From positions 1-64,000 of the forward strand of contig CALWBE010000013.1 of the NCBI GenBank assembly GCA_944375955.1: DNA of 64,000 bases, read 5' to 3'. This document shows, in pieces, positions 18,929-28,091 of the stretch (position 1 is its first letter; every line of letters begins with the position of its first letter). The notes below the pieces were generated by a model that saw nothing but the letters and a program-made list of their open reading frames with translations, was not told the DNA's origin and searched no databases. The DNA is from an uncultured Clostridia bacterium. GTDB lineage: Bacteria > Bacillota > Clostridia > Oscillospirales > CAG-382. Made by a program: the position numbers and the translations under genes.

Positions 18929-21181
18929 TTACGGTTCAAGCTCAATTATATTTACGCCTGAATTATTCTTAAGCATATCCTTTTCACGCGTATGGCATGT
19001 AAAAATCAATATCTGATATTTTTCCGAGAGTTTTAGGAGTGCCGAAAGAATATTCGGCAATCTGCCGTCATCTATATGTGCGAACGCCTCGTCCAGAACT
19101 ATAACCGGTGCTTCATGAAACAGTATTTCACACAGGGATATCCTAAGCGCGAGATATGCCGCGTCCTGCGTTCCCTGACTTAAATATCCCGCCTCCCGCC
19201 GAACTCCTGCGTCGGTTATTCCTATGCCGCTGTTAGAATTATATATGTCAAGAGTGCTGTACTTGCCGCCTGTAAATATTTCAAACAACTCCCCTGCTCT
19301 TGAAGCGATTCGCGGAGATATACCGCCTTTCAGATCTCCGCACGCCTCCTCGAGAGCTTCAAGCGCCATTTCCGCGGCATCCGCTTTTTCATTAGCATCC
19401 TTAAGCATAGCTTCGGTAGCCTGCTTTTCGGCAAGTATTTCGGAAGGTTTTCTCACTGAAGACGCCGGAGCCGCCGCCTGCTTTATATATGTCTTTTCAA
19501 GATCTGACAGCGATGCGTTGGCTTTTTCGAAAAATTCATATTCTCTCTTTACAGTTTTTTTATCCCTTTCGGGAACATGTGTATAAAATTTCGCAGCGTC
19601 TGACAGCGCATGCAGATCATTTACGGCAAGAAAAGTATCATATATGCTGGCACATCGGTTTTTTTCTCTTTCCGCTGCTTCCAATTTCTCAAGAGCCGTC
19701 TTCATATTTTCTATAAATCCTGCAGCTGTATTCTCATCAGCTCCGAACGGCAAAAGCAGTTTGCGGAGCTTTTCCAGTGCCTCGCGCAAATTATCCTTTT
19801 TAGTCTCTTCCTCTGAAATAAAAAGCTTTTCCTTAGCTTCATACTCAATTATCATTCGGCGCGCGTCAGGCAAGCTTCCGGAGAACTCATAAAAATCGTC
19901 AAGATCCGTAAATCCGTGAGCCTTCAGCAGCGCGCGGATTCTCCCGTAATGCGACACTGCATAAATAATCATGGCAACCGCTGCCGCTCCGAATACCGCC
20001 GCCGCAGGAATTATAATATTTAAAACGCTTGCGCTTACCGGTATTATTTTGATAATTCTCGAAACAAGGCATATCCCAGACAACACCGCTAAAACCGCCG
20101 CGGCTATAAAAGCTCTTTTGCGCGAAGCTGAAATGGATTTTATCCTTTCGGACACCGCGTCTGTATTAGGAAGATTCTCTTCAGAAAATCTTGACAGTCC
20201 GTCAAGCGCTTTTATTTTTTCCTCTTTTTCTCTGCGTGCTTTTTTCAAGTTCTCTTCCGCCTCGCAGTATGCCTCTTTCGTTCTTAAATAATTGCCGTAT
20301 GCCTCCGTAATTTTAACAGTTGTTTCACGATCGCATATTATTCCGTTAAACTCAACCGATTTTTCTGCGTTTCGGTATTCCGCCTCCGCCGCATCAAGCG
20401 CTCTTTTCGCGTCCATTACCTTCTGGAGCAGATTATTTGCTTCATATCCTTCGATATTTCTAAGCTCGGCTTCAAGCGTATCCATTTTTTCTTTATTGTA
20501 TACTATCTTATTTTTTATCTCTATAAGCTTTGCTTCCGCAGCAAGCAGCGTCTTATGCATTTCCGACGCTTCGTCAAAGCTATACCTCAGCTCGCGTATT
20601 CTGTTCTCAAGCTCAAAACACATACCGGTTTTTCGCTGCCTGCTTCTGTAAACATTGCGATAATCAACTAATTTTTTTCTCGCCTTTTCTATATCTATAT
20701 TCTCATCCGCTGAATATACCGTGTTTTGAATTATATCCGAAAGATTTGACATTCGGTCTGCCGATATGTCGTTTTGTCGTATAAACGCAATCTTGGCAAA
20801 TGCCGCTTCATCCATTCCGAGTATCGCTTCTCCGGGTTCCTTTCCGAAACTGCAGTCCTTCCCTGTCTCATCCGTTATTTTCAATATGTTTTTTGAACCT
20901 TGGATCTGCCGTTCTATACGGCACTCGCCTCCGCTGTATGACACAATCGCCGAACCCATAACAGCTCCGCCGTTCCATGGCAAATATTTCAGTTTGTCAT
21001 TTGTCTGAACCGATCTGGTCTTCTGGGAAGAAAATCCGTATAAAATATAATTTATAAACGACGAAAGCGTACTTTTTCCTGATTCATTTTTCCCGTATAC
21101 GACATTAAGTCCATCCGAAAATTCAAATCCGCGTTTTTCAAATTTGCCGAATGATCCTATAAATACTTTTTTTAACCTCAT
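18929..21181 (-). CDS. YhaN/SbcC-like AAA ATPase with central coiled coil and membrane hairpin
   Basis: 750 residues. Walker A GKNESGKST at about residue 31-39; GKFEKRGFEF and the following strand match the AAA_27 (YhaN) N-terminus. Coiled coil spans about 195-345 and 435-620. Between the arms sit two hydrophobic segments (about 350-410, for example AFIAAAVLAVLSGICL), a feature of YhaN-like proteins and not of SbcC. The ABC signature is LSQGTQDAAYLALR, Walker B is PVIVLDEAFAHIDD and the H-loop is FTCHTREKD. A role in DNA-end handling at the membrane is inferred from the family. The usual partner nuclease (YhaO/SbcD type) is not adjacent; instead the gene follows a DnaD-domain gene by 5 bases and ends the murD operon. 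Confidence 0.8.
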   Translation of the reverse strand: MRLKKVFIGSFGKFEKRGFEFSDGLNVVYGKNESGKSTLSSFINYILYGFSSQKTRSVQTNDKLKYLPWNGGAVMGSAIVSYSGGECRIERQIQGSKNILKITDETGKDCSFGKEPGEAILGMDEAAFAKIAFIRQNDISADRMSNLSDIIQNTVYSADENIDIEKARKKLVDYRNVYRSRQRKTGMCFELENRIRELRYSFDEASEMHKTLLAAEAKLIEIKNKIVYNKEKMDTLEAELRNIEGYEANNLLQKVMDAKRALDAAEAEYRNAEKSVEFNGIICDRETTVKITEAYGNYLRTKEAYCEAEENLKKARREKEEKIKALDGLSRFSEENLPNTDAVSERIKSISASRKRAFIAAAVLAVLSGICLVSRIIKIIPVSASVLNIIIPAAAVFGAAAVAMIIYAVSHYGRIRALLKAHGFTDLDDFYEFSGSLPDARRMIIEYEAKEKLFISEEETKKDNLREALEKLRKLLLPFGADENTAAGFIENMKTALEKLEAAEREKNRCASIYDTFLAVNDLHALSDAAKFYTHVPERDKKTVKREYEFFEKANASLSDLEKTYIKQAAAPASSVRKPSEILAEKQATEAMLKDANEKADAAEMALEALEEACGDLKGGISPRIASRAGELFEIFTGGKYSTLDIYNSNSGIGITDAGVRREAGYLSQGTQDAAYLALRISLCEILFHEAPVIVLDEAFAHIDDGRLPNILSALLKLSEKYQILIFTCHTREKDMLKNNSGVNIIELEP

Positions 21182-21186
21182 AACTA

Positions 21187-22131
21187 TTACCTATTTCCCG
21201 TTAAATCGCCATCCGGCTTTTCAGTAAAGTCCTCTAATCTGAAAGCTCCGTTTCCGCCGTCTTTCCCGATTTTTACAATATCATCTTCTGAAAACGGCAT
21301 CTGCCCTTCTATATCCGATAAGCTCTTTATTCCCTGAGATTTCCAATTATCGATAATTTTCGACATATAAACAAGCGACGGCTTAGATATGTTATTTATT
21401 GTCCGCTCATATGCCGCAGCTATAAGTTCTTCGGAAATTCCGTCTGCCGTAAACTGCTCTATTATCTTTTTTTCCTTTGCGGTAAATCCTCTGTTCTCAC
21501 ACCCTATTATGCGCCTTATTTTCGTCTCTACTGTCCTTTCCTTCGCTTTTCGGTCTATGTATTCCTCTAATTTTTCATATGTGTCTATCCCGTCTTCGTC
21601 ATGCATATGTACGGCAGTACGCTCTATATATCTTACGCTTTTCTTTCCCTCGGATACGCAATATTCTATTATCCCCATGACAAGCTCGCAGCTCATTGAC
21701 ATCGCGTCTACAAGCGAATATAAGCCTGCCTGCTCTCCCGGAGTCAAAATTTTTTCAAGCTTCATTGATGCAAAATTCAATAACGAACGGATATCTTCGT
21801 TGCTTTCTATCGCATCGGCAAGTTCTCCCGAAGAATATGATATGCTCTTTTCCGACGGCTTGGTTTCAGATACTATCCGCACCGGCGGCGTTTCATCTTT
21901 TTTATATGTAATAATTCCTGTTCCCCGCCAAAATGCCAGCGCCGAATATACTTCACTCTCTGTTATTCCCACCGCCGCCGCAATATCCGCTTCATTTCCG
22001 GTCATGCCGCACGATGCAAAAATATGAAATAATACGCGCAGTTCCGCTGTCCCGGCATTTTTTATATGTTTTTCCGCTTCCTTCGGCATAATGAAAACCG
22101 AGGAAAAAACACTGTTTTCAAACTTTATCAT
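21187..22131 (-). CDS. DnaD-domain protein
   Basis: 314 residues. The N-terminal third is a winged-helix region (AELRVLFHIFASCG, then VGITESEVYSALAFWRGTGII). Two helical DnaD/DnaB_2-type domains follow: LTPGEQAGLYSLVDAMSMS and FTAKEKKIIEQFTADGI with the closing YxxKIIxxW pattern in MSKIIDNWKSQGI. Such proteins help load the replicative helicase or act at phage and primosome origins. In many Clostridia a DnaD protein is followed by a DnaC-like loader; here a YhaN-like ATPase takes that place. Confidence 0.8.
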   Translation of the reverse strand: MIKFENSVFSSVFIMPKEAEKHIKNAGTAELRVLFHIFASCGMTGNEADIAAAVGITESEVYSALAFWRGTGIITYKKDETPPVRIVSETKPSEKSISYSSGELADAIESNEDIRSLLNFASMKLEKILTPGEQAGLYSLVDAMSMSCELVMGIIEYCVSEGKKSVRYIERTAVHMHDEDGIDTYEKLEEYIDRKAKERTVETKIRRIIGCENRGFTAKEKKIIEQFTADGISEELIAAAYERTINNISKPSLVYMSKIIDNWKSQGIKSLSDIEGQMPFSEDDIVKIGKDGGNGAFRLEDFTEKPDGDLTGNR

Positions 22132-22134
22132 TTT

Positions 22135-23382
22135 TTACTCTCCGGATATTTTTTCAGCTGCAAGCAAAATCCCCAGCTTGCCGCTTTCATATGTAAGTCC
22201 CCCCTGAAGATATGCCGTGTACGGCTGCCTCATCGGTCCGTCGGCTGACAGCTCTATTGACGCTCCTGAAGTAAAAGCGCCCGCCGCCATCACAACCGCA
22301 TCTTCATAACCCGGCATATCCCATGCCTCAGGTGTAACATGCGAATCAACAGGAGATCCGCTCTGTATTCCGGCACAAAATTTTAAAAGCCGGTCGGCAC
22401 TGCCTAAAGTTACCGTCTGCACAATATCATGACGTTCTTCTTCCGCCAAAGGATATACGCTGTAACCTAACCTCTCAAACAGCTTCGCAGCAAACACCGC
22501 TGTTTTTAATGCCTGACATACTGTATGCGGAGCATAAAAAAGTCCTTTATACATGCTCTTTGTCTGACCTAAACTTGCTCCCGCTTCCTTTCCGATCCCA
22601 GGTGTAGTAAGCCTATATGAAATAAGCTCTATCGCTTTTTTTGTGCCCGCCATATATCCGCCTGTCTCAGCCATGCCGCCTCCGGCATTTTTTATAAGCG
22701 ATCCTACTGCTACATCTGCTCCGTAATATGTGGGCTCATGCAGATCGCAAAACTCTCCGTAACAATTGTCTACGAAAACCACAACGTCAGGATTTATATC
22801 ATGCGCCGCTTTTGCAGCTTCTCCTATTTCACTTGATGACAGAGTCGGACGTACCGCATATCCCTTTGAACGCTGTATATAAACCATTTTTATGCTTTTA
22901 TCTCTTTTAAGCTCACGGCACATCGACTCAATATCTATTCCGCCATCCATTTCGATTCCGCGGTATTTTATCCCATAGTCAGCAAGAGATCCCATTCCTT
23001 TTCCGCGCAGACCTATTACCTCATCAAGTGTATCATAAGGTTTCCCGGTCACTGAAAGCATTGTGTCTCCTGTACGGAGTATTCCGAAAAGTCCGATACA
23101 TAAAGCCTGAGTGCCTGATATTATATTGTGGCGCACAACTGCATCCTCAGCCTCGAAAACTCTTGCAAAAACTGCGTCGAGCGTATCTCTGCCCCGGTCA
23201 TCATAACCGTAACCGGTCGTAGGACAAAAATGAGATTCCGAAACCTGATATTCGCGAAATGCTTCCATTACTCGCATCTGTATACGAAATGCATTTTCCT
23301 CTATTCTGCCAAAAATGCCGGCTTTTATAAGCTCTCTTTCGGTCTCCTCTGCTATTTTAAGCCATTTTTCGGTATCTTTCAT
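22135..23382 (-). CDS. PLP-dependent methionine gamma-lyase-like protein (YnbB/aluminium-resistance family)
   Basis: 415 residues of the fold type I Cys/Met-metabolism relatives. RHNIISGTQALCIGLFG is the phosphate-binding region, VFVDNCYGEF carries the cofactor-contacting Asp, and GSLIKNAGGGMAETGGY holds the Schiff-base Lys. GYGYDDRGRDTLD near residue 57 is characteristic of this family. The true substrate is not known. The start ATG overlaps the stop of the preceding M42-like gene by 4 bases (ATGA). It is part of the murD operon. Confidence 0.85.
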   Translation of the reverse strand: MKDTEKWLKIAEETERELIKAGIFGRIEENAFRIQMRVMEAFREYQVSESHFCPTTGYGYDDRGRDTLDAVFARVFEAEDAVVRHNIISGTQALCIGLFGILRTGDTMLSVTGKPYDTLDEVIGLRGKGMGSLADYGIKYRGIEMDGGIDIESMCRELKRDKSIKMVYIQRSKGYAVRPTLSSSEIGEAAKAAHDINPDVVVFVDNCYGEFCDLHEPTYYGADVAVGSLIKNAGGGMAETGGYMAGTKKAIELISYRLTTPGIGKEAGASLGQTKSMYKGLFYAPHTVCQALKTAVFAAKLFERLGYSVYPLAEEERHDIVQTVTLGSADRLLKFCAGIQSGSPVDSHVTPEAWDMPGYEDAVVMAAGAFTSGASIELSADGPMRQPYTAYLQGGLTYESGKLGILLAAEKISGE

Positions 23383-24395
23383 CTATTTTCCTCGCTTTTT
23401 TCATCACTGAATATAAGAAATGCACATGCCGCCGCTGCTGCTCCGCGAAGATCACGAAGATCACATTTTGATGTCCCGACCTTCTTATTCGACGCAGATA
23501 TCCCGATTATCCCCGTTTTCGTTCCCTCTGATATAAACGGCGCTATCATTGAAATTTCATCTTTTTCCGTTTCCGCACAAAGCTGATATGATATTCCTAT
23601 ACCCTCAGCCGCCTCTTCCAATCCGCCGGTTACATAATCTGAACACCTGCCTCTTCCGTCCGAAAATGCTATCACCGGCCCTGCGCCTGTCTTTGTACGT
23701 CCTTCGGGGATAAGTTTAAACGCTATAGCTATGTCAGCTCCGACTGTATATGCCGCACACTTCTCGCCGCGGGCACCGAGAAGATGCTGCGCAGCAAATA
23801 TATAATAAACGTCAAATGAAAAAGATCCGGCGCATTTCGCTATATCTATTAAGCTTAAGCAGAATATTTTTGAAGATAAGCCGTTTAAACAAATTCCGTT
23901 ATCTCCAAAAAAGACCGGCGGATCATCCGCGCATATAAAATCTCCTTCGGATATATCACGGTTTTTATCTTCTGTTTCAAGATAAAAGCTGTCTTCACCT
24001 ATCTTATCAGTATCAGAACTGTCTGAAAGCAAAACTCCGCGGTATATGCTTTTTCCTTTTTCTATCTGAAATGCTTCTCTTCCGCAAAGTCTTGCATAAA
24101 ACGGATTCCCTATTCCGTGCAGACGTATTTTACCCTCGCTTTTTGTGTCTGCCGCAACAAAGCCTGCTTCATCCGCCGCCGCTATAAGAGCAATTTTTTC
24201 GGCATTTTCAGCTCCGCTTCTTTTAACCGCGATAACATTTCCGATATCATCGGCAAATATATCGTCGCAAAAGTCCGAAAGTTCTTTTTTTACATACTCA
24301 TACATCGAGTTATTCTTTTTGTCAAGACTTCCGCTGACTGTCTTTATTGAATAAAGCTTCTCTATTTTTTTTCTGTTTTCCGTATTTATACTCAT
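23379..24395 (-). CDS. Degenerate M42 peptidase-like protein (probable pseudoenzyme)
   Basis: 338 residues that align along their length with the two M42 peptidases immediately upstream, but with the metal site lost. AHxDEVG is AAADEAG; the DDR motif is replaced by LNGLSSK; EELGLRG is QHLLGARG; the late His is missing (KKVGTSKCD in place of xxHS). Only an Asp equivalent (GADIAIA) seems kept. The frame is intact with normal codon use, a good ribosome region (GAGAGG) and tight operon spacing, so it is not a dead pseudogene by appearance. It may be a structural or regulatory subunit of the large hollow particles that M42 enzymes form. That role is inference. Confidence 0.75.
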   Translation of the reverse strand: MSINTENRKKIEKLYSIKTVSGSLDKKNNSMYEYVKKELSDFCDDIFADDIGNVIAVKRSGAENAEKIALIAAADEAGFVAADTKSEGKIRLHGIGNPFYARLCGREAFQIEKGKSIYRGVLLSDSSDTDKIGEDSFYLETEDKNRDISEGDFICADDPPVFFGDNGICLNGLSSKIFCLSLIDIAKCAGSFSFDVYYIFAAQHLLGARGEKCAAYTVGADIAIAFKLIPEGRTKTGAGPVIAFSDGRGRCSDYVTGGLEEAAEGIGISYQLCAETEKDEISMIAPFISEGTKTGIIGISASNKKVGTSKCDLRDLRGAAAAACAFLIFSDEKSEENR

Positions 24396-24420
24396 TTTAA
24401 AATTCGCCTCTCATTCGGAA

Positions 24421-25452
24421 TTACAATCCAGCCGCTTCATCGGATACCGCAAAAAGCAGCTTCTCAACCTCATCTATATCGCTTTTTTTAGCTATACTGC
24501 AGGCAGAATGAATATATCTTGTAGGAACCGCAAGTCCCAGTGTGCGGCATCCTCCGGCAATACGCGTATAAGAACCAGCGTCAGTTCCTCCGGCAATTTT
24601 TGTTTTTGTCTGACAAATGATCCCTTTTTTTTCAGCAATAGCTCTTGCTTTTCTGTAAAGGTCTGCTGAATATACAGCCGAGCCGTCCATAAACGGAACA
24701 ACCGCGCCCCCTCCTACAAGGCATGTCCTTTGAGAACCTGTTACTCCGTAAACATCACCGGCTGTAGTACACTCAAGATTTATGCACAAATCGGGTTTTA
24801 TTCTTTCCGCAACCGTCTGCGAACCACGAAGCCCGAGCTCTTCTCCGACACAAAATGCAAAATATCCGTCATGCTCTATACCTCTTTCCATAAGCGATAT
24901 AAGCATTGCGCAGCCTGCTCTGTCATCAAGCGCTTTTGCCTTTATCATTCCGCTTCCTAATTCTTCATATCCGCTGTCAAAAACCGCGTAATCCGCGTAT
25001 ACTCCAAGTTCTTCCGCTTCCTCCCGGCTTTTCGCTCCTATATCTATAAAAAGCGACTTATGCTCAGGTATTTTTTCACTTTCCTCTTTTTCCAGAAGAT
25101 GCACGGGTTTTACGGCAATAATACCGGGTATTTTCTTTTTCCCTATCAATACCTGTCTTCCGGTATAAACAAGAACACTCATTCCTATCTGTTCAAACAG
25201 CAGCCTTCCGTCATCTTCAATATGAGTTATAACAAAACCTACCTCGTCGGCATGGCATGAATAAAGTATCCTCTTATTGTTTTCACATTTGCCGAGACGT
25301 CCTTTTTTATAAGCGATAAGATTACCTGCTCTGTCATATTCAAGTCCGTCCGAATATTGCCTGATCCTTTCTTCAATAAACTTCAGCACTTCGCTCTCAT
25401 ACCCGGAAACTCCGCTTTTTTGGCAAAGATCTTTTAAAAGTTCATAATTCAT
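24421..25452 (-). CDS. M42 family aminopeptidase
   Basis: 343 residues from the ATG at 25452, chosen for AAGGAG 9 bases upstream; the start overlaps the previous M42 stop by 11 bases. All metal ligands are present: CHADEVGF, LDDRAGC, VGEELGLRGS, NLECTTAG and RYIHSACS, plus GGTDAGS. These enzymes are cobalt/zinc aminopeptidases that assemble as tetrahedral dodecamers and trim peptides in the cytoplasm. An intact partner lies upstream and a ligand-less relative downstream. Confidence 0.88.
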   Translation of the reverse strand: MNYELLKDLCQKSGVSGYESEVLKFIEERIRQYSDGLEYDRAGNLIAYKKGRLGKCENNKRILYSCHADEVGFVITHIEDDGRLLFEQIGMSVLVYTGRQVLIGKKKIPGIIAVKPVHLLEKEESEKIPEHKSLFIDIGAKSREEAEELGVYADYAVFDSGYEELGSGMIKAKALDDRAGCAMLISLMERGIEHDGYFAFCVGEELGLRGSQTVAERIKPDLCINLECTTAGDVYGVTGSQRTCLVGGGAVVPFMDGSAVYSADLYRKARAIAEKKGIICQTKTKIAGGTDAGSYTRIAGGCRTLGLAVPTRYIHSACSIAKKSDIDEVEKLLFAVSDEAAGL

Positions 25453-26581
25453 TGCCCAAAACTCCTTCCATAGGAATGATTTTTCTTGACTTTTCAAAAT
25501 TATCTGCAAATTCCGGAAAAACCTTGAAAAATTCACAAAGCAGCTTCGCGCACGAATATACGTCTTTTATATCAACAGCTTCTACAGCTGTATGCATATA
25601 TTTTTCCGGTATTGAAAGCACTGCACACGGAGTTCCGAGATATGCGTTTGAAATATAATTAGCATTTGTTCCGGTACTTTTAGGTTCTACCATTTTCTGC
25701 AAAGGTATTTCGGATTTTTCAGCGCAGGATACAAGCGCGTCGGTAAGAGCTCTTGAAGTAGTGCAGGAATAAGAAACTCCGCACCCCTCCCCGAGTATAT
25801 AACTTTCCTGCGGAGCTATCTCATAATCCCTGCCAAAATTAACATCCATAACTACAGCTCCGTCTGCAAGCAGTCTGCCGAGAACGGCTCCGCCGCTTCC
25901 GTTTACTTCCTCCGCCGAGGAAAATGAAAATATTATATCGCATTTATCAACATAGTTTTTATCTTCCGACGTAATCTTTGCCGCAAGCAAAACTGCCACG
26001 GCGCATATGCGGTCATCCATACTTCTGCCGCATATAATTCCGTTGCGCAGCTCTTTATAAGAAAACGTAAACCCGCATGCGTCTCCTACCGATACAATAT
26101 CGCAAAGTTCTTCTTTTGTATATCCCGTATCAATAAACATTTCTGATAACGGCGGAAGTTTTTTTTCGGCGTCCTTATCTTTTTTAGAGAGATGCGGAGG
26201 CGTCGAAACAAAAACTCCCTTTATGGTCTTTCTGCCATATATCTCCGCTTCGGAAGCAAAAAGCAGTCTTCTGTCTATTCCCCCCACAGCTTCAACCCGC
26301 ACGAACCCTCCGTCAAGGATCTCGGAAACAATAAATCCCACCGTATCAAAATGCGCGTCTATCAACAGTTTCCGAGCATTAGGAACTCCGCAGCTATGTG
26401 TAAACAAAAGTCCCCCTCCGGCAAGTATCTCAGACTTGTCGAAAAAATCCGTGTACATTAAAACCGTCTGACGCATCTTTTCAGCATAGCATTCCTCTTT
26501 GCCGCTGACGGCAGGAATCTCCGCAAGCATTCGGTAAAGTTTTTTTATTTCTTCAGTATAAACTTCTATATCAAGTTTCAT
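25442..26581 (-). CDS. M42 family peptidase (first of three)
   Basis: 379 residues. DAHFDTVGF, SMDDRICAV, FSSAEEVNGSGG, VMDVNFGRD and KYMHTAVEA supply the His/Asp/Glu-Glu/Asp/His metal set. GTNANY replaces the GTDA motif. An insert near residue 125 (HLSKKDKDAEKKLPP) lies where the protomer-contact region is expected. The ATG overlaps the murD stop by 11 bases, so translation is coupled to murD. Link to cell-wall synthesis is by operon only. Confidence 0.85.
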   Translation of the reverse strand: MKLDIEVYTEEIKKLYRMLAEIPAVSGKEECYAEKMRQTVLMYTDFFDKSEILAGGGLLFTHSCGVPNARKLLIDAHFDTVGFIVSEILDGGFVRVEAVGGIDRRLLFASEAEIYGRKTIKGVFVSTPPHLSKKDKDAEKKLPPLSEMFIDTGYTKEELCDIVSVGDACGFTFSYKELRNGIICGRSMDDRICAVAVLLAAKITSEDKNYVDKCDIIFSFSSAEEVNGSGGAVLGRLLADGAVVMDVNFGRDYEIAPQESYILGEGCGVSYSCTTSRALTDALVSCAEKSEIPLQKMVEPKSTGTNANYISNAYLGTPCAVLSIPEKYMHTAVEAVDIKDVYSCAKLLCEFFKVFPEFADNFEKSRKIIPMEGVLGNEL

Positions 26582-28091
26582 CTCCGGTATCTTTCCTTTT
26601 CATATCCGTTTCTTTTCGTGCAAGCTCACGGACTATCTCTTTATAGAATTTGCCGCGCTCCTCAAAATTTTTGAAAAGATCAAAACTCGCCGATGCCGGC
26701 GTCAACACTACCTTATCGCCTTTTTTCGCATAGCGCGCAGCCGAAACAACAGCTTCTTTAAAATCTTCGTAAACATATATTTCTGTCGAGCCGTCATAGT
26801 TTTCAGCTGCAAGTATCGCTTCTTTTATCTTTTCAGCAGTTGCTCCGCAAAGAAAAACTGCGCGTGCCATTCTGCATATAGGTTCTCCTACGGGAGTATA
26901 CGGTATATGCTTATCATATCCGCCCATAATAAGAACAATCTTTTTCCTGCATTCTTCAGGAAAGCTCGTTACTGCCGCAATTGTCCTTGAAGGCGACGAG
27001 TCTATTGAACTGTTATAAAATTCCGCGCCTCCAATAGACGCCACATATTCAAGCCTATGCTCTACTCCGCCGAAAGTTTTTGCAATATGTTCTACGTCTT
27101 GTATAGATATAAAATCCTCCGTAGCTGCCATCGCAGCCATATAATTTTCCGCATTATGCACTCCCGGCAGCTTTATTGCCGACCTTGAAAGTACTGGTTC
27201 TCCATTTTTATATATCATCTTGTCATCGGCATAATATCCGCATGTCTTCACTTTTGCCGAAAATAATTCTACATTTATTCCCCGATTTTTCGCATCCTGC
27301 GCAAATGATAAAGTTATCTCATTTGCTGCGTTTGTAACAAGTTTTGCTCCTTTTTTCATATGCGTAAAAATTGCTTTTTTTGAATCTGCATATTCTTCGT
27401 ATGAGGTATGCCAGTCAAGATGATTAGGACTCACATTAGTTATTACCGCGACATCAGGAAATCCTTCCGTTTTTACCGGGAATCTGCCATCGGGATAATA
27501 TCCTATTGAATGCAGCTGAAAGCTTGAAAGTTCAAGAACAGCAAAATCCTCAGGACGCATTTTGGGCGTCTCATACAACAGCGGTCTGCCTATATTTCCT
27601 CCGAGATGTACCGTATATCCGGCACTTTCAAGCATCTTTGCTATCAAAGTCGTCGTAGTTGTTTTTCCGTCGCTTCCCGTAACTGCAATTATTTTTGACG
27701 GACATATAGAAAGAAATACCTCCATTTCACTGGTTACAAGAGATCCCCTCGAATGCGCTTCGGCGATTTTCACATTATCGCATCTCAATCCCGGAGTTTT
27801 AAAGATAACTTCTTCATAAAGACCATCCAAATAGTCTTCTCCGGTAAAAAAACGAACCCCTTGTTTCTCTAATTTTTGTATGTCTATATTTTTATTTTTT
27901 GAAAGTTCTTCTATAGGTTTCTTATCTCTGGCATTTATCGTAGCTCCGCATTCAAGCAAAAATTTTATCAGCGGCAGATTGCTTATGCCTACGCCTAACA
28001 CGGCACACCTTTTGCCTGAAAGAAAATGTGCATATGCTTCCAGCTTTTGATTCGTATTATTTTCCATATATAGGTTTTTCGCACCTTTCAT
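26571..28091 (-). CDS. murD: UDP-N-acetylmuramoyl-L-alanine--D-glutamate ligase
   Basis: About 506 residues (498 from a second ATG at 28067, which is equally possible; neither has a convincing ribosome site). KRCAVLGVGISN is the N-terminal nucleotide-fold loop, TGSDGKTTTTTLI the Mur-ligase P-loop, NVSPNHLDWH the central domain motif, and HNAENYMAAMAA and SPSRTIAAV the C-terminal ones. It adds D-Glu to UDP-MurNAc-L-Ala in the cytoplasm. It is the first gene of a seven-gene operon that runs to the terminator at 18881, and is away from the usual dcw cluster. Confidence 0.93.
   Translation of the reverse strand: MKGAKNLYMENNTNQKLEAYAHFLSGKRCAVLGVGISNLPLIKFLLECGATINARDKKPIEELSKNKNIDIQKLEKQGVRFFTGEDYLDGLYEEVIFKTPGLRCDNVKIAEAHSRGSLVTSEMEVFLSICPSKIIAVTGSDGKTTTTTLIAKMLESAGYTVHLGGNIGRPLLYETPKMRPEDFAVLELSSFQLHSIGYYPDGRFPVKTEGFPDVAVITNVSPNHLDWHTSYEEYADSKKAIFTHMKKGAKLVTNAANEITLSFAQDAKNRGINVELFSAKVKTCGYYADDKMIYKNGEPVLSRSAIKLPGVHNAENYMAAMAATEDFISIQDVEHIAKTFGGVEHRLEYVASIGGAEFYNSSIDSSPSRTIAAVTSFPEECRKKIVLIMGGYDKHIPYTPVGEPICRMARAVFLCGATAEKIKEAILAAENYDGSTEIYVYEDFKEAVVSAARYAKKGDKVVLTPASASFDLFKNFEERGKFYKEIVRELARKETDMKRKDTGDET

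Follow-up and report, generated by a model that had tools for sequence, protein, structure and literature searches.

A catalytically dead third paralogue maintained in an M42 peptidase operon of Clostridia, probably as a subunit of a heteromeric TET-like aminopeptidase

Three consecutive genes for M42 peptidases, here called A, B and C, lie in the window (the whole stretch of 64,000 nucleotides analysed, from an uncultured Clostridia bacterium), and the third has lost its catalytic site while being maintained as a gene. We consider it probable that the three are paralogues that together build one heteromeric TET-like M42 aminopeptidase, in which C was inactivated once in this lineage and has since been retained in the shell in a structural or regulatory capacity. 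Among the explanations weighed below, a structural or regulatory role for C in a heteromeric TET-type aminopeptidase is the most likely; that the three share a particle, the stoichiometry of that particle and what C contributes to it are matters that we infer. M42 peptidases have mostly been studied as homododecamers, with their genes expressed singly, and if the triplet is the native form, assays of single subunits miss the physiological particle.

An earlier note on this DNA had placed three M42 genes at 23379–26581; the coordinates are correct, and the genes form one operon on the minus strand. Subunit A is encoded at 25442..26581 (PF05343, 7e-59, 199.7 bits), subunit B at 24421..25452 (8.5e-76, 255.2 bits) and the pseudoenzyme C at 23379..24395 (3.2e-20, 72.8 bits), all above the PF05343 gathering cut-off of 23.2 bits. 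The next gene upstream of A encodes a murD-like Mur ligase (26571..28091; PF08245, 4.4e-34), and beyond C lie genes for a PLP enzyme of the Met_gamma_lyase family (22135..23382; PF06838, 5.5e-167), a DnaD-domain protein (21187–22131) and an SMC-like protein (18929–21181), likewise on the minus strand. The translational coupling proposed in the note is borne out by the spacing: murD shares 11 nt with A, and the stop codon of C shares 4 nt (ATGA) with the start of the PLP-enzyme gene. We set the start of B at the ATG at 25452, which has a Shine-Dalgarno-like GGAAGGAG upstream, rather than at the ORF finder's GTG at 25536, and given this start A and B also overlap by 11 nt. A gap of 25 nt separates B from C, and GAGAGG precedes the start of C. 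The source genome, which is 94% complete, contains no PF05343 genes other than these three. Those of its genus mates that have names are assemblies from gut metagenomes, entered as Clostridia or Oscillospiraceae bacterium.

Subunits A and B are the two intact enzymes they were proposed to be, since both retain every metal ligand. With positions named in the PhTET2 style, the ligands and general base are complete in A (H/D/EE/D/H) and in B (H/D/EE/E/H, with Glu as fifth ligand). Each also carries a loop histidine (STPPHL in A, VKPVHL in B), which is absent from C. The three subunits can be told apart by signature: a loop His with Asp as fifth ligand in A, a loop His with usually Glu in B, and Asp with no loop His in C. 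One A row with Lys at the loop position (G064, L124) comes from a gene at a contig edge that has a short loop and no B in its locus; its class is doubtful, and it was left out of the comparison of A loops with the state of B that is made below.

In C, the corresponding places read A73, S174, H204-L205, K227 and K305 (alignment numbering minus a 5-residue offset), meaning that the five metal ligands and the general-base Glu are all gone. The claim that C is stripped of its ligands holds for every residue named, and the list was incomplete, as the fifth ligand (Asp/Glu to K227) has been lost too. Window C retains Asp75 of the HxD motif and Arg209 of the GxRG motif. Its AF2 model (pLDDT 84.5, pTM 0.88) has a normal M42 fold, with PhTET2 as best structural match (Z 35.9, 2.4 Å over 318 residues). 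The Pyrococcus TETs of family M42 (PhTET1, PhTET2, PhTET3) have this fold in common with the C model, and the same ligands and loop His in common with A and B; unlike them, C has neither the metal ligands nor the loop His, and here three subunits come from one operon.

The same kind of loss is found in 12 genomes, and what has been kept and what has been shed in their C proteins differ sharply. All 12 keep nine columns (D40, D65, G68, G86, G106, G142, F191, R200 and G201, in the numbering of the reference C), while each of the ligand and GGTD substrate-pocket columns, nearly fixed in active C, is kept in at most one of them (0–1/12). The substitutions were expected to be conserved in relatives; the in-frame loss of the site is, and the replacements differ between genera, with A, V, P, R, K or N, for example, standing in for His. 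These patterns bear on whether C could still be catalytic, through different ligands or a different chemistry. A His at the general-base position (His204, in 5/5 genomes of genus g1) and cysteines conserved in g1 could be read in that direction, but the GGTD pocket motif has gone along with the metal ligands and the replacements vary from genus to genus, and we give this reading scarcely any weight.

One of the retained residues bears on contacts between subunits. In PfTET3, Arg212 touches the adjacent subunit (PMC4745047). R200 of the reference C aligns with this residue by motif, and the aligned Arg is present in 138/138 intact C and 17/18 changed C, as against only 83/167 A; it varies in both A and B. 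Window C keeps this arginine, whose PfTET3 counterpart makes subunit contacts. Of the contacts expected in a tetrahedral dodecamer, the alignment covered this one arginine. The RYxH region of the dimer interface is eroded in C of the window genus, which counts against a shared particle.

The triplet itself is old and widespread, and its C is usually intact. We searched 99 relatives and fetched M42 loci from 87; of the other 12, 11 had no match to B and one (G075) had a single weak match. In the loci of relatives, the order A-B-C recurs across the family and the order, usually with murD before it and often with the PLP enzyme after it. Further afield, A, B and C were found in 39 of 40 loci from the class (once with C before murD) and in 39 of 40 from the phylum (one with A and B fused), the remaining phylum locus being cut before C. 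The class loci were picked from strong or tandem matches, plus all 14 loci of family f36 among the matches listed, and half of the phylum loci were picked for low B scores; both sets were thus chosen, not random, and their counts are not prevalences. Over all sets, 149 of 174 loci contain A, B and C, 16 only A and B, five only C, two only A and two only B and C, with some of the 174 cut by contig ends.

Among 75 C genes in relatives, 58 are intact, two are intact as far as they can be read and 15 are changed. Dead C is found in 5/5 genomes of genus g1, 2/2 of g3, 4/4 of g4 and 1/4 of g8. In a tree of A and B from 68 genomes, from which C was left out, the 12 dead-C genomes form one side of a single branch (SH-aLRT 99), so the catalytic activity of C was lost once in this clade of four genera, from a C that we read as active in the ancestor. 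A profile of dead C scores these 12 at 355 bits or more and all others at 242 or less across the whole family (63 genomes), and among 391 genomes of the class only the C of the window falls in that range (409 against at most 239.5); as the profile was built from the 12, both separations arise partly by construction. In three genomes of g8 (G011, G030 and G036, one of them 95% complete) we found no M42 match, though their genus mate has the triplet with dead C.

The earlier note had counted an intact or missing third gene in relatives against its own reading, and such relatives do in part exist: C is usually intact outside the clade, it is absent in some families, and three of the four g8 genomes have no match. 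We take intact or absent C elsewhere to reflect an ancestral, active C that was inactivated once in the clade, and not as a refutation. Chance, an artefact, contamination or a sequencing fault as the source of dead C is ruled out by its recurrence in frame in 12 genomes of four genera, including all five of one genus. A different paralogue in third place is also ruled out, since the C profile is the best for every dead C, although that profile included six dead C rows. Three single genomes outside the main clade, at other places on the tree, have C genes with some or most of the ligands changed: G070 (f11; L106:6486-7421, away from A-B), G085 (L114) and G086 (L058).

Dead C is under purifying selection, as the dN/dS test suggested in the note now indicates. 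By two methods, dN/dS is 0.13–0.16 for G003-G004, 0.10–0.12 for G007-G019, 0.14–0.17 for G007-G027 and 0.09–0.14 for G019-G027, and neutral evolution is rejected for these four close pairs at 10^-18 to 10^-28; a more distant pair, G006-G018, gives 0.23. Between window C and the C genes of its genus dS is at or close to saturation, so the test relies on close pairs from other parts of the clade. Ratios of 0.09–0.17 together with the rejection of neutrality mark C as a maintained pseudoenzyme and not a decaying gene. At the same time, constraint has been partly relaxed: relative to the mean distance of A and B, the distance of C is 1.90 in the dead clade (66 pairs) and 0.76 for active C in family f1 (351 pairs), approximately 2.5 times faster in the former, with pairs that are not independent of each other.

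These figures also bear on whether C might be in slow decay, its catalysis gone and its frame surviving by chance or through polar effects on the downstream gene. The faster evolution of C relative to A and B is in keeping with this, as are the three g8 genomes without a match and the shortening of the gene in genus g4, where dead C (L075, L077, L080, L083) is approximately 25 residues shorter at the C-terminus and lacks the region of the last helix. Against it, the frame is open over 310–343 codons in 12/12 of the clade genes found, dN/dS is only 0.09–0.23 with neutrality rejected, and several glycines and the Arg are invariant in all 12. Random decay is ruled out by the dN/dS and neutrality tests, and slow decay in the wider sense is in our judgement highly improbable. 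The conserved dead subunit proposed in the note is accordingly well supported, by 12 genomes of one clade in which C is in frame with dN/dS well below 1.

A second, separate case of the same arrangement is found in family f215, from another class of the phylum. Here A and B are a single chain joined by a linker in 3/3 genomes (L187:2927-5506; L240:1276-3768; L241:3873-1498; a frame of approximately 790–860 codons), and both halves of the fusion have the full ligands and the loop His. The gene after the fusion is a dead C in all three, with P, G, S-L, then Q/M/L, then T/A at the ligand places, and with the Arg kept. In f198 and f206, the sampled families of the same order, C is intact, and the starred branches of the tree require dead C to have arisen at least twice. 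Family f215 thus repeats the arrangement of the window independently. AF2 of the natural A-B fusion (pLDDT 69.5, pTM 0.69) was based on a three-row alignment and is too low for judging the A-B interface.

The f215 locus is also relevant to a rival that accepts C as a maintained pseudoenzyme and gives it a separate job, for example in peptide binding or regulation, without its joining A and B. We regard this as unlikely, though as deserving more weight than decay or other chemistry. The metal site is gone, the RYxH motif of C has gone with it in the window genus, and motifs specific to a genus, such as His204 in 5/5 g1 genomes, could mark a new site. Yet the gene is still directly after B in the same operon, the interface arginine is retained, and C has died independently after an A-B fusion in f215. 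For these reasons we prefer a C that is still part of the A-B particle.

A further indication of contact between subunits comes from the mirror-image case, in which it is B that is dead. A study of PhTET2 reports that loop His123 may lie near the active site of the adjacent subunit, and that substrate binding is weaker in mutants (PMC8993905). Family f36 belongs to the class of the window, and B is dead there in 10 of the 13 genomes with a B gene (L148, L157, L159, L161 and L163-L168), the general-base Glu being R, K or H in 10/10, and A and C are intact. The loop His of A is lost in 10/10 cases beside a dead B, where it is replaced by Y, E, Y, Y, E, E, Y, V, C and R, and is present in 3/3 beside an intact B. 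Across all loci, it is found in 152/152 aligned A proteins whose B is intact as far as can be read and in 0/10 with a dead B; in three further loci a contig end cuts off the A loop. Of 40 A columns conserved at 90%, only F183, P237, H238 and A368 (alignment columns) are lost together with B, and two of these are the Pro-His of the loop. No C columns were found to be lost with dead B.

The loop His of B itself survives in 10/10 of the dead B proteins. That the His of A is lost, and not that of B, argues against loops that act within homodimers, which predict loss of B's. The rate of evolution is higher in dead B as well (1.72 against 0.95), and the genomes that have it group together (SH-aLRT 90). 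B was thus probably inactivated in a single event, after which the replacements diverged, so the 10/10 does not represent ten independent trials. A comparable scan of f1 for A and B columns lost with C picked out four columns of A, plus a gap artefact in B, and these point to no clear contact; the only real column lost in all 12 dead-C genomes is an A Pro (column 392), which by eye is seemingly kept in the A domain of the fusion.

From these observations a working model can be drawn. A and B would be catalytic neighbours, the flexible loop of one entering the active site of the other, so that A-B heterodimers exchange loops and C makes up further units of the shell. In the ancestor, C would have been a third active subunit, whose metal site was then lost once in the four-genus clade; dead C would occupy places in the shell, influencing its chamber, its pores or how stable it is, and would leave catalysis to A and B. 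The loop His is absent from active relatives of C as well (60/60), and C, which never has it even when active, is thus not a loop donor for A or B. Loss of one metal is reported to destabilise the PfTET3 particle (PMC4745047). If this extends to C, a metal-free C would need its neighbours for support, which the kept arginine would fit. C must nevertheless be dispensable somewhere, given the three g8 genomes without a match and the several families that have A-B without C. The mixed particle proposed in the earlier note is, then, partly and indirectly supported, by the joint loss of the A loop His and the B active site, by the A-B fusion and by the conserved gene order, all of which are indications from sequence.

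Inactive paralogues within a self-compartmentalising peptidase are familiar from ClpP-ClpR and other peptidases with inactive subunits. ClpP-ClpR differ from the M42 triplet in belonging to an unrelated serine-peptidase family with a ring architecture. Closer to the present case, PhTET2 and PhTET3 are paralogous M42 subunits that form a heterododecamer with mixed apices (PMC4220976); as described there, both chains are active and were reassembled in vitro, whereas our mixed particle is a proposal in which one chain is dead. In B. subtilis, in-cell crosslinking supports a heteromeric complex of the M42 paralogues YtoP and YsdC (PMC10090944; PDB 9a5r). That complex has two subunits and no known dead chain, in contrast to the three genes and dead C of the window. 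The fold, the ligands and paralogous M42 heteromers are therefore already known; a dead M42 subunit and a widespread A-B-C operon we did not find described. This applies to the literature searched for an M42 pseudo-subunit or an A-B-C triplet, whose coverage excluded most subscription journals.

The division into A, B and C may predate the phylum. The best Thermotoga maritima match is 1vho for the A profile, 2fvg (TM1049) for B and TM1050 (3isx/4p6y) for C, and the loop pattern is like that of A/B/C (His, His and none, respectively). We presume that TM1048 is the locus tag of 1vho and that the Thermotoga genes are in tandem order. To the extent that the printed alignments cover them, the ligands are retained in all three T. 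maritima proteins, unlike in window C. The C-type protein, TmPep1050, is a homododecamer. Made alone it is reported to be an active aminopeptidase (PMC3511314), and a C-type chain need not, on that account, have partners. It is for us a finely balanced question whether an obligate TET particle of three subunits encoded by one operon, with loop-exchanging A-B heterodimers and a loopless C, is the rule in many bacteria of the phylum and perhaps in Thermotoga, with non-A subunits silenced yet retained at least three times (C twice, B once). Dead subunits are natural mutants; from the joint loss of the B site and the loop His of A one can predict which subunit acts for which, and cooperation between TET subunits becomes directly testable with purified proteins. 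The neighbourhood is conserved beyond the peptidases themselves, as murD, the M42 triplet and the Met_gamma_lyase-family PLP enzyme (22135–28091 in the window) are co-located across much of the order.
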